Positions 40,766 through 51,392 of a DNA stretch of 64,000 nucleotides are shown here, piece by piece. Numbering within the stretch: the first letter of the stretch is position 1; every line of letters starts with the position of its first letter. The notes below the pieces were generated by a model. The model saw only the letters and a program-made list of their open reading frames with translations. It was not told where the DNA came from and did no database searches. The DNA is from Agapetus fuscipes. Its lineage: Eukaryota; Arthropoda; Insecta; Trichoptera; Glossosomatidae. The translations under genes and the position numbers were made by a program. The stretch is from positions 16,130,820 to 16,194,819 of the forward strand of contig OX637352.1 of assembly GCA_951799405.1 (NCBI GenBank), written 5' to 3'.

Positions 40766-41001
40766 TCAATTTTTGCCAAAATTTGTGTTGCTCGTCCAAG
40801 TTCGTATCGGTACATCAGAAAGTCCTCCAGGCTGGGCCTTCACACCCAACTGAAGAGGAGGAGACAGCTCCTCTGACTTGGTGGGACCGTCCGGAATCCC
40901 AACTTGTCCTGGAGGAGACAGTCCCTCGGATTTAGTTGGAGCTTCCAGAAGATTTCCCGGAGATCCAGACTGAGGTAGTGCAGGATTCTCAGCGGTTGCA
41001 T
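40766..41001 (-). CDS. Exon 2 of the proline-rich paralogue
   Basis: 236 nt, open for 77 codons to TGA. Rich in Pro, Gly, Ser and Leu, with a twice-repeated PTKSE(G/E)LSPP unit. It starts two bases into a codon, so it needs a phase-1 donor, which the exon at 41700-41751 supplies. Confidence 0.72.
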
Positions 41002-41751
41002 CTGAAGTATTAAATACATATAAGGATGACGACTAACGAATGTACAGAGGAAATGTCAAAGAAAAGCGTGAAAGACGAAGACTGCGGAAGGAACGGATAG
41101 ACCAAATATGTGAGATTGCGAAAAAATGTAACGTGCAGAGTGAGAATAAGAGAAGAGTATGTATGAGGAAAGTGATTAATTTTGAAGAGATAAAAGATAT
41201 GCAAGGACGGAAAAAAGTAGAGATACATCTGCGGAGGTACCGGCCACCCCTAGTGAAACGGTGGCAGGATACAGTAACAGATATATTTGGTGAGCGCTGT
41301 TTTCGTGTGAATCACACTTCTAGAATTTAGTCGTCACTATAGAAAGTATCAATTCTCAAGCAAGACCCAATTGCTGTAAGTTTGAAGAATTTTTCAACCC
41401 AGCGCTTAAGTAAGTACTTAGTATATTTTAAAATATAAATAGTTTTTTTTGTGCTCCGCCGGGAATCAAAATCACATCCTTCCGATTACGAGTCCGTAGT
41501 GTTGACCATTATAGTACTTACAGACCGTTCTCATATACTCATGTATGTAACAAAATCTGATTTAATAAAATAAAGCTACTTTCTTTAGCTGCGACGAAGC
41601 TCGCAGAGGACTCTTGAGGTGTGATTCACACAAAAACAGCGCTCACCAAATAAACCATCCTAATATTAATATTATTCATAATTTAAAAATATATCTTACT
41701 TTGAAACAATACCCCCATCGTGGCAAATACCACAAGATGAATTTTTAACAT
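40766..41751 (-). CDS. Secreted proline-rich protein, paralogue of the PAQPEQ gene (two exons)
   Basis: Exon 1 (41751-41700) codes MLKIHLVVFATMGVLFQ plus one base, donor GTAAGA. Exon 2 (41001-40766), acceptor CTTCAG, codes ATAENPALPQSGSPGN and two imperfect repeats, PTKSEGLSPPGQVGIPDG and PTKSEELSPPLQLG. It ends TSNTNFGKN and TGA, 95 aa in total. Exon 1 has exactly the same coding length (52 nt) and intron phase as the gene at 51.3 kb, with Lys3, Leu6 and Gln17 shared. Cleavage is plausible after ATA. The intron holds an RTE-like LINE end and a SINE A copy. TTTATT on the + strand at 40503 and 40527-40536 gives AATAAA on this strand. Function unknown. Confidence 0.72.
41010..41280 (+). mobile_element. 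Second RTE-like LINE family, 3' coding end
   Basis: RRLRKERIDQICEIAKKCNV and RRVCMRKVINFEEI, frame-shifted near the end. In the intron of the proline-rich gene. Confidence 0.75.
41283..41660. repeat. SINE A (-) and SINE A tail fragment (+)
   Basis: 41283-41528 degenerate full copy; 41588-41660 tail ending TCCTAATATTAATATTATT. Confidence 0.75.
41700..41751 (-). CDS. Signal-peptide exon of the proline-rich paralogue
   Basis: 17 codons, MLKIHLVVFATMGVLFQ, and one base before the strong donor GTAAGA. Lys3 followed by a hydrophobic core is typical of a signal peptide. Confidence 0.72.
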
Positions 41752-41843
41752 TATAATATTTTAACAAAATACAATAACTTCAAACTGAATTCTATAGGTA
41801 CAACTTTTGTAGAATTCAATAGAATTGTCCTTCGTTCGAGTAA

Positions 41844-41874
41844 TGCTTCTAAATTTGTGTCTCGTCCTTTTATA
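41844..41874 (-). promoter_or_regulatory. TATA box of the proline-rich paralogue
   Basis: TATAAAAG on the - strand (41874-41867), with a CA start candidate at 41844, 30 nt downstream. A TCAGT also occurs closer to the ATG without a good TATA. Predicted 5' UTR about 93 nt. Confidence 0.45.
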
Positions 41875-49000: not shown

Positions 49001-51299
49001 CGGCTGTGGAGTGTGGTAATCTAGCCTTACTGGCGCTTCTTGATATGAGTGCGGCCTTTGACACAGTAAGTCACCCAATTCTTATTGAGAGATTGGAGGT
49101 GTCATTTGGTTTGACCGGAGGGGCTTTGGCGTGGTTTTCTTCCTATCTGGTGGAGCGCAGACAGGCGGTGCGTATTTGTGATAGTGTTTCACCTACCTAC
49201 TCGCTGTCTTCCGGGGTCCCACAGGGCTCTGTGCTGGGTCCGATCCTTTTCATATTGTATACTGCTGAGATTGAGAGTATTGTTGAAAAATGGGGCCTCA
49301 TCGCACACTCATATGCAGATGACTGGCAAATATACTCTCATTCTCGGCCAGACATGGCTGAGGACCTCAGTTGCAGGGTCTCTGGGTGTATCGCGGAGGT
49401 CGGTGGGTGGATGAGGAACAATGGCCTAATCTTAAACATGGATAAGACGGAGATACTCTGGGCAGCCACATCGAGGCGTGACCACCTTCTGGTGAATAGA
49501 GTACCACTCTCCATAGGAGGTAAGCTAATCCAGCCTTCTGATTCGGTAAGACTTCTAGGAGTCTTACTGGATCGTAACCTGACACTGGATAGGCAAATAG
49601 ATGCCACAATAGCTTCTTCTTTTTTTTCGCTTCGCCAAATAAAGGCAATAAGAAAATGTCTGCCGTCAGATGCGGTTAAGACCCTGGTGAGTGCGTTTGT
49701 GATGTCTCGGATTGACTATTGCTCGACGCTTTATAGTGGTCAGCCGAAGAAACAGTTTAATCGCTTTCAATCTGTGTTGAATTCGGCAGCAAGACTCATA
49801 TTCGGGATTCCCAAATTCGCTCACATCACCCCGCTGTTAAAAAAACTTCATTGGCTTCGTTTCCCGGAGAGGGTGGTCTTCCGTGTTTGTTTAATGGTAT
49901 ATAAAGCCATCAATGGCTTGGCCCCACCTTATCTGGCTGATATGATTTCACCTGTTGAAATGGGTGTTAGGAGGCAGACACTCAGATCTGCGGGTGATGG
50001 AGTAGTCAATTTGGTTCAGCCGCGCCGTCAGATTCGTACAAACTTCGGAGACCGCGCTTTCCGTGTTGCGGGGCCGGTGGAGTGGAACAGACTGCCACCC
50101 GGAGTGAAGAACTCCAAATCTGTGGGTGTATTTCGAGGAGCACTCAAGGCACACTTGTTTAGAAAGTCTTATCCATGATCGGAGAGGGCCCTTGAGGTGT
50201 GACACACACAAAAACGGCGCTCTCTTATCATGTGTAATTTAAAATAAATCAGCCTGTTATTATTATTATTATCATGACTCAGCAAAATTAATGGAAGACA
50301 CACAGCACCTCCAGTGATTGTTTTAATTTTAATGCATTTATTCTGTTTATTTATTTCATTTCATTTCTAAAGAAATAGATTTGTGAAGAGGAATGCAATT
50401 CGCAAACCTATTTTGCCTGGCCAGAAGGATGTATTAACATTATCAATCAATAATTCATTATTTACCCGACTACCCAATGACATCTATTGAACCAGGGTCG
50501 AAGTTATTGCGGATATGATATGACGCAAGCGGGGTTCGAACCAGCGTTAGTGTCAATATCGCAGATTCGAGCGCCGACGCCTTATCCCCTCGACCATCCC
50601 AGCGACGGACACGCAAAAAAAAAAAAACGCAACTAAGCTACACATATAGTGTAACTTCTTGCCGCGTTATCCCCAAAGGGGTCGCATGTGGCGAGTTGAA
50701 CCTTTTTTTTATTTTTAGAGGTACCTAAGGGGGTCGGCCTTACGCCAACCACTTCAGTTGAAGTGGGGGTTTCCCAGCTCCCGAGAGTGCTGGTACTCAT
50801 TTCTTGTGAAGGCTGAGTAAACCTTGCCGGTATTTTATTTCGGGGTTTGAAATAAACACCGAAACGGGAAAATATCATTTCTGACACCCTCGGTGGGATT
50901 CGAACCCGAGCTCATGGCATGGAATGCAAGCACTCTACCAACTGAGCTATCGACCGGACGCAGTTTACAAAATGGTTGAGGATAGTACAAAACTTAGAGT
51001 AGTGATGCTTTTACCGCAGAAGTTAAAACTTTTAAAACCTGGATAACGATGGAGAAAGATGAATTTTGAAGTTGGTAACAAGAGTGCATTGTTGTGCTAG
51101 CCATTTTTATCTGCTGGTCCTCCTCTCTTGAGTTATGACTAAAGGGAGACATCCATGAATCACTTCAAATCCAGGAAATATGAAGTTCTTGGACAAATTC
51201 TGGCTCGTCTTCTTGTGAGTAGTAAAAAGAGAAAAAAAAAGGATTACCTTGAAGGGCTATAGCCAGTAAGACTATAATAGCCAAATTAAATTTCCACAT
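45478..51299 (-). CDS. Secreted Pro/Gln-rich repeat protein (two exons)
   Basis: Exon 1 (51299-51248) codes the signal peptide MWKFNLAIIVLLAIALQ plus one base. Its donor GTAATC splices in phase 1 to exon 2 (46010-45478), which follows a T-rich tract and AAG and codes ARAQQVPAQPAQ, then about 150 residues of PAQPEQ and PAQ units. It ends AAPSQPGGYRMRRSLLSFL and TAA, about 194 aa in total. Signal cleavage is plausible after VARA. It has no cysteines and its only strong charges are Glu in the repeat and Arg near the end. A TATA box and TCAGT initiator sit at the right spacing upstream. The intron (5.2 kb) contains a CR1-like LINE and SINEs. The function is unknown; an extracellular matrix, silk, cuticle or mucin-like role is speculation. 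It shares its gene plan with the gene at 41.8-40.8 kb. Confidence 0.7.
46080..46929. other. Intron of the PAQPEQ gene, 3' part
   Basis: No repeat recognised. A 31-nt stretch at 46633-46663 (- strand) has both a good acceptor (TTTACAG) and donor (GTAGGT) but no independent support. Confidence 0.4.
46930..50275 (+). mobile_element. CR1/L2-like LINE, second copy, inactive
   Basis: Same family as the 16.8-20.1 kb copy. The frame is open from 46971, is interrupted by a single TGA (48120-48122) where the other copy has Ser, reopens in the same frame to about 48815, and continues after a shift near 48805 to 50178. EN ([11 protein letters not shown]) and RT ([14 protein letters not shown]) motifs are both readable. 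The 3' UTR (50179-50275) has the shared CCCTTGAGGTGTGACACACA block and an ATT repeat. It lies in the intron of the - strand PAQPEQ gene. Confidence 0.92.
50385..50620 (-). repeat. tRNA-like SINE D
   Basis: Contains GGTTCGAACC-type B box (AGCGGGGTTCGAACCAGCG) and the TTTGCCTGGCCAGAAGGATG body shared with 11.3 and 32.1 kb. Confidence 0.6.
50632..50957 (-). repeat. SINE B, full length
   Basis: ACTAAGCTACACATATAGTG to CCAACTGAGCTATCGACCGG; contains the segment missing from short composites. Confidence 0.88.
51248..51299 (-). CDS. Signal-peptide exon of the Pro/Gln-rich protein
   Basis: 52 coding nt: ATG in the context TCAAAATG, 17 codons (MWKFNLAIIVLLAIALQ) and one base before donor GTAATC. The predicted 5' UTR is about 59 nt. 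Confidence 0.7.
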
Positions 51300-51355
51300 T
51301 TTGAATATTAAACCGAGAAAGCCAAGAAGTAACGGACTATTCTACACACTCTAAT

Positions 51356-51392
51356 ACTGATGCACTTCCAGGCAAAAACCTTGTCTTATATA
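51356..51392 (-). promoter_or_regulatory. Core promoter, TATA plus TCAGT initiator
   Basis: On the - strand, TATATAAG (51392-51385) is followed by the arthropod initiator TCAGT (51360-51356). The initiator A lies 32 nt after the TATAAG start, the expected spacing. Predicted transcription start is 51358. Confidence 0.6.

Follow-up and report, generated by a model that had tools for sequence, protein, structure and literature searches.

Does the minus strand of a 64,000-nucleotide (nt) stretch of the trichopteran Agapetus fuscipes (contig OX637352.1, positions 16,130,820 to 16,194,819; the whole stretch is called the window below and is numbered from its first letter) carry two split genes for secreted proline-rich proteins between positions 40,766 and 51,392, and would these two genes be relatives? 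A preliminary description of this DNA had proposed such a pair, here named gene 1 and gene 2. The pair is probably best explained as two animal genes, each composed of a TATA/initiator promoter, a tiny signal exon and a terminal exon, the last encoding a cleavage motif and then a mature protein that is low in complexity, rich in proline and free of cysteine, for which an extracellular structural or lubricating role is likely. Gene 1 is very likely a real gene and gene 2 is likely to be one; exons, frames, signals and a codon pattern can be read in the DNA, and splicing, secretion and function are predicted. The parts of gene 1 are listed first and those of gene 2 after them, with a slash at splice junctions and cleavage sites.

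51385..51392, minus strand: TATA box of gene 1 (TATATAAG), its TATAAG (51390) lying 32 nt upstream of the A (51358) in TCAGT
51355..51360, minus strand: initiator-like TCAGTA of gene 1
51248..51299, minus strand: coding exon 1 of gene 1, 52 nt, MWKFNLAIIVLLAIALQ plus 1 nt, with ATG at 51299 (17 codons and one base)
46011..51247, minus strand: predicted intron of gene 1, GTAATC...AAG, or 3 nt longer (...AAGTAG, to 46008)
45478..46010, minus strand: terminal exon of gene 1, (V)ARA/QQVPAQPAQPAQPEQ...PSQPGGYRMRRSLLSFL and stop, the stop codon ending at 45478, with 50 P[AE]Q triplets
41867..41874, minus strand: TATA box of gene 2 (TATAAAAG), 30 nt upstream of the A (41844) in GCATTA
41700..41751, minus strand: coding exon 1 of gene 2, 52 nt, MLKIHLVVFATMGVLFQ plus 1 nt, with ATG at 41751
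41002..41699, minus strand: predicted intron of gene 2, 698 nt
40766..41001, minus strand: terminal exon of gene 2, NATA/ENPALPQ..., two PTKSE(G/E)LSPP units, ...KAQPGGLSDVPIRTWTSNTNFGKN and stop, the stop ending at 40766
40530..40535, minus strand: AATAAA candidate of gene 2 (others at 40617, 40531 and 40508)

The split layout described earlier, with a 52-nt exon 1, a phase-1 donor, a frame-matched acceptor and a single terminal exon, was correct to the base for both genes. The minus strand of gene 1 reads ATG TGG AAA ... CAA G, followed by the donor G/GTAATC after 51248, and its acceptor could be either TTTTTTTAAG/TAG (46010) or, 3 nt further, AAGTAG/CTC (46007), the frame being the same for both. 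This NAGNAG acceptor (AAGTAG at 46010/46007) would add or drop one Val directly ahead of the cleavage motif. The gene 1 product would read ...LAIALQ(V)ARA/QQVPAQPAQ..., with 193 amino acids (aa) when the 46007 acceptor is used. An alternative first exon closer to exon 2 was looked for, and no minus-strand candidate was present in 46011-51247 at the thresholds of the scan described below. Gene 2 reads ATG TTA AAA ... CAA A on the minus strand, with the donor A/GTAAGA after 41700, and in a manual reading TTCAG/A at 41001 was the sole frame-compatible acceptor among the 5 AGs listed. Its predicted product, MLKIHLVVFATMGVLFQNATA/ENPALPQ..., has 95 aa.

The proposed TATA box about 30 nt before a plausible start was found in each gene, with the spacing to the initiator-like A given above, and no ATG occurred between the initiator-like site and the start codon in either presumed leader. 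Features of secretion were predicted in both products, namely Lys3, a hydrophobic core (mean Kyte-Doolittle value over the best 10 residues 3.45 for gene 1 and 2.56 for gene 2) and an Ala-x-Ala (AxA) cleavage motif, which stands immediately past the junction in both (ARA/QQ in gene 1, ATA/EN in gene 2). As a control, each exon 1 was joined in turn to all AGs of the window behind which 8 or more codons stay open (5001 random acceptors per gene). AxA then arose at this position in 2.6% of the joins for gene 1 and in 1.5% for gene 2; for the 565 AGs with 60 or more open codons the shares were 2.7% and 1.6%. Since AxA follows the splice in both genes, the end of the signal peptide most probably lies within exon 2, so that exon 1 would encode the core of the signal peptide and the terminal exon would supply the cleavage motif and the mature protein. 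No AxA is encoded within exon 1 of gene 2. The earlier claim of secreted, proline-rich proteins split at a matching place is supported, as a prediction from sequence.

By a crude pyrimidine score the three acceptors were among the best 9.2%, 5.3% and 6.1% of AGs. Scanning both strands for an ATG with a hydrophobic stretch and a strong donor gave 5 starts. Of these, 2 had a TATA box and corresponded to gene 1 and gene 2; the remaining three included two nested in one frame. In 200 order-3 Markov sequences the mean was 0.70 starts, or 0.17 with a TATA box; none of the 200 reached 5 starts and 2.5% reached 2 with a TATA box, an excess which is indicative rather than proof, as the thresholds were picked after a wider list of 17 rows had been viewed. 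The four exons and both promoters had no second copy within the window, against 52% of the 40-52.5 kb region being repeated, and a random 52-nt piece is copy-free 45% of the time, so single-copy exons give weak support.

The repeat of gene 1 forms a 150-residue block in which P, then A or E, then Q follow in a register of three with zero exceptions, and because the triplets were chosen by translation, the test lies in the zero exceptions over 150 residues and not in the triplet count. The first and second codon bases of the triplets were all kept, except for the base that switches Ala to Glu (Glu in 16/50), and Glu-to-Glu spacing among the 16 Glu was 9 residues in 12/15 intervals. The third bases varied, with Pro CCA/CCT/CCC/CCG at 27/15/7/4, Gln CAG/CAA at 27/26 (25/25 within triplets) and Ala GCT/GCA/GCC/GCG at 31/3/2/1 in the exon. 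Because the third bases vary while the residues hold without exception, gene 1 appears to be translated and selected in this frame. The array was also open in one other minus-strand frame and in two plus-strand frames, therefore openness itself is no evidence for coding, and it agrees with a reading in which the PAQPEQ array would be a 27-bp satellite without coding function, open by accident, with signal exons arisen by chance. A satellite should vary everywhere, but the variation in one frame was all silent over 150 residues apart from the A/E switch; the satellite reading is disfavoured and is considered very improbable.

The PTKSE(G/E)LSPP repeat proposed for gene 2 was present, though with two units only. 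When they were compared over 14 codons, 6 codons differed silently, 4 changed the residue and 4 were identical, a small sample which points the same way as the selection pattern of gene 1. In both genes the repeats may be kept by selection on amino acids while the codons drift.

The mature protein of gene 1 would have 173 aa with an isoelectric point (pI) of 4.05, and is composed of 31% Pro, 31% Gln (53 Gln), 21% Ala and 9% Glu, with 3 Arg, 2 Gly, 0 Lys and no Cys. A polyproline-II helix makes one turn every three residues, which matches a strict three-residue repeat, and from the register of three (P-A-Q-P-A-Q-P-E-Q) an extended rod of the polyproline-II type is therefore expected for gene 1. 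Its faces would be Pro, Gln and Ala, the Ala face bearing Glu mostly every third turn, and the chain would be extended, hydrated and acidic. The mature protein of gene 2 (74 aa, pI 4.77, 4 Lys, no Cys) would be a short acidic protein, probably flexible, with the two PTKSE units. Judged by composition alone, the job of these proteins may be that of an abundant structural or lubricating part of an extracellular secretion, such as glue, silk, saliva, or an egg or genital secretion, and they may be fast-changing, as proteins of such materials are.

Alternatively, both proteins could be cut into antimicrobial peptides or neuropeptides. Precursors of proline-rich peptides in insects can indeed be small and repetitive, and a basic RMRR stretch at the end of gene 1 could be cut. 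However, both mature proteins are acidic by the pI values above, in contrast to the cationic character of proline-rich antimicrobial peptides, no Lys or Arg occurs inside the gene 1 repeats, and no Pfam match was obtained (0 families for gene 2, and for gene 1 only a sub-threshold glutenin hit, Glutenin_hmw at 22.7 bits with a cut-off of 50). A precursor role is hence thought improbable, and a structural or lubricating role is preferred.

The window around these genes is rich in reverse-transcriptase open reading frames (ORFs) and repeats; 47% of it has another copy inside the window, and its GMC oxidoreductase and BTB stretches exceed the Pfam cut-offs. This content points to animal, probably insect, DNA. 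Sequence repeated elsewhere in the window covered 67% of the gene 1 intron. The elements in and around the introns were as follows.

47288..50255, plus strand: decayed non-long-terminal-repeat (non-LTR) retrotransposon in the gene 1 intron, antisense to the gene, 73% match to 19766-16804
50612..50961, strand not assigned: transfer RNA (tRNA)-like short interspersed element (SINE) copy in the gene 1 intron, the label being our own reading; 50616-50961 is 90% like 22482-22145
41280..41687, strand not assigned: element in the gene 2 intron resembling a miniature inverted-repeat transposable element (MITE), with TGGTGAGCGC inverted ends, BLAST-covered except 41518-41578
41035..41273, plus strand: 3' fragment of a reverse-transcriptase element in the gene 2 intron
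40577..40642, minus strand: second reverse-transcriptase fragment, past the gene 2 stop

The reading frame of the non-LTR copy in the gene 1 intron is broken into three open pieces, of which the first begins at 46971, and its 73% kin elsewhere in the window is an intact non-LTR retrotransposon ORF of 1076 aa (16874-20104, minus strand). The MITE-like family, with inverted ends (TTTGGTGAGCGCTGTTTTTGTGTGAATCACACC), was found in at least 9 places besides 41280-41687, and its inner part is tRNA-like in our own reading. 5S ribosomal RNA matches were observed at 24799-24917 and 15303-15415 (both minus strand; 79.6 and 64 bits), each adjoining a repeat end, and these are perhaps the heads of 5S-derived SINEs.

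Several observations weigh against the interpretation as two complete genes. In gene 1, the hydrophobic core encoded by exon 1 already contains an A-I-A (residues 13-15), where an earlier cut is possible, so that the cleavage site of gene 1 is uncertain; in addition, no AATAAA or ATTAAA polyadenylation signal was found within 778 nt downstream of it, where only variants such as AATACA occurred. A homologue of either gene was not found in a protein set with few animals. For gene 2, at least 84% of the intron has further copies within the window, and local alignment carried the reverse-transcriptase similarity on as far as about 41016, which leaves 14 nt before the acceptor, so that the intron ends free of transposon were 12 nt and 14-33 nt long. 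Ends of this length are too short to form a working intron, therefore the original intron of gene 2 was altered or partly lost when the elements inserted, or the exon pair is wrong.

If the pair is wrong, gene 1 would be real and gene 2 a remnant or a chance assembly of an ATG exon with hydrophobic residues and a brief open frame, joined over transposon debris. The repeat-filled intron, the reverse-transcriptase similarity stopping so near the acceptor, the terminal exon of only about 78 codons and the second transposon fragment after it agree with this. Against it stand the silent and replacement differences (6 vs 4) in the internal repeat, the AxA past the junction with its 1.5% chance, the 30-nt TATA-initiator spacing with an AATAAA downstream, and an exon without a second copy in the window. 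We therefore regard such a remnant as rather unlikely, and partial loss of the original intron is favoured over a wrong exon pair on account of the silent-change pattern and the AxA motif. Gene 2 exon 2 was also considered as antisense reverse transcriptase, which was ruled out by the end of the alignment at about 41016.

The preliminary description had further called the pair a locally duplicated gene family. On this view the two genes would be true paralogues, produced by in-place duplication, with the signal exon and intron kept and the cargo repeats replaced by unrelated ones. Strand, nearness, the 52-nt exon and phase 1 are common to both genes. The ungapped alignment score of residues 2-27 gave p 0.003 against region-stratified shuffles, in which residues were exchanged only within the n-region, within the core or within the mature part, and residues 2-16 alone gave p 0.022 by the same procedure. 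QPGG stands close to the C-terminus in both (SQPGG and AQPGG, p 0.025). Further values came from unstratified shuffles (exon-1 score p 0.002; residues 1-30 p 0.001; repeat-free proteins p 0.003; exon-1 bases alike in 24/48, p 0.006 with codon shuffle), which destroy the order of parts in a signal peptide and make the match look better than it is. A precedent exists in the Drosophila glue genes, where a phase-1 intron shared within the signal peptide was read as a sign of common origin despite the unlike repeats of neighbours (PMC6352337).

Other results were neutral or spoke against paralogy. Identity alone gave p 0.12 for residues 2-27 and 0.19 in another test, the mature N-termini alone gave p 0.52, and the nucleotide comparison gave p 0.26 for the 5' regions and 0.49 for the 3' regions; moreover, these values belong to a series of several tests. 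Genes with signal peptides most often carry phase-1 introns, and in animals such introns are in excess around signal cleavage sites (PMC1626468). The shared Gln17 may be partly forced by the donor consensus, as xAA-G/GT favours Gln, Glu or Lys at codon 17. Among the matches listed, the only one between the two introns was a 44-nt piece of a many-copy, widely scattered repeat. Strand, exon length, phase and alignment score agree between the genes, and identity, the mature N-terminus and the flanks do not bear this out; the evidence for a duplicated family is suggestive only, and true paralogy is considered less likely than not.

Beyond simple duplication, a modular pair was conceived, in which the fixed 52-nt signal exon was kept, the whole cargo exon was exchanged and the gene 2 intron was later rebuilt almost entirely from transposons, giving a two-part material that could be cross-linked by transglutaminase. 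Gene 1 would here be a lysine-free, Gln-faced rod (53 Gln, 0 Lys) and gene 2 its short lysine-bearing partner (4 Lys). This idea is speculative and carries little weight with us.

The two genes as a kind are familiar, being lineage-restricted secreted repeat proteins, and the literature yielded analogues only. The nearest working model is given by the Drosophila glue genes Sgs1, Sgs3, Sgs7, Sgs8 and Eig71Ee, of which these genes are not members. In the glue genes a phase-1 intron interrupts the signal peptide, the second of two coding exons holds the repeats, and neighbours have unlike repeats (PMC6352337, PMC10835880); the genes here are similar in the predicted phase-1 intron of the signal region (after codon 17), the exon-2 repeats and the unlike neighbours. 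They differ in intron position, at residue 10 in the glue family (28-bp first exon in Sgs1; PMC10835880) and at residue 18 after 52 nt here, in the C-terminal IRXC[L/V]C motif of the glue family, against no cysteine in either protein here, and in the repeats, which are Thr-rich there and made of P/Q/A/E here.

Mammalian salivary PRB/PRH proteins are likewise secreted and extended, with Pro/Gln-rich tandem repeats of variable length (PMC3235478), but their repeats have 20-21 aa with Gly and Lys, while those here have 3 or 9 residues with almost no Gly and, in gene 1, no Lys; the PRB1 exon junctions at residues 22 and 34 are also unlike the layout here. The resemblance is convergent at most. Brochosome-associated proteins of leafhoppers, insect orphan secreted proteins of which some have tandem poly-proline helices (PMC10607721), can be likened by their published description only, and high-molecular-weight glutenin and plant proline-rich tandem repeat proteins (PMC3149072), from a different kingdom, are alike in composition only.

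The protein search with gene 1 gave 94 matches among 7997 scored candidates, few of them with an organism name, one being the nematode Haemonchus contortus (P0085). As relatives these matches were rejected and judged compositional after 8 sequences had been viewed, and a filter for proline-rich residues 19-60 over them left 4 N-termini with no convincing relative. For gene 2 no candidate with three shared words was found in this protein set, which shows few animal records. As a yardstick, a retrotransposon ORF of the window was searched and gave 20 matches, none of them above 43% identity or labelled with an organism; the animal coverage of the set was taken as thin, and therefore missing homologues say little. 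The strings PAQPEQ and PAQPAQPEQ occurred in none of 5.39 million open-licence papers, although a known motif may never be spelled out in a text.

Gene finders readily overlook secreted genes that are short, split and repeat-coding, and it is among such genes that glues, silks and saliva evolve. The codon-position pattern in a repeat together with a splice-made cleavage motif can argue for such genes from DNA alone, and if paralogy were true, the pair would illustrate neatly how a single signal exon can be combined with unrelated cargoes.

Several neighbouring features were observed in the window. A third candidate secreted gene lies head-to-head with gene 1 at 52131-53155 on the plus strand, with TATAAAAG at 52131 and AATAAA at 53150; its ORF (52702-53085) encodes 127 aa with a hydrophobic start (MLLTVGKVIVFMYILSLFSFVSLKA) and a remainder of pI about 4.4, and had no Pfam match. 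A DEAD-box-helicase-like stretch at 57001-57285, presumably belonging to DDX1, is tandemly duplicated with a period of 152 bp and 93% matches, one peptide of 11 residues being common to both copies. In addition, a tandem satellite with a 14-bp unit (ATTATATAGCCCAC) occupies 4946-5172, in 16 copies with 97% matches.

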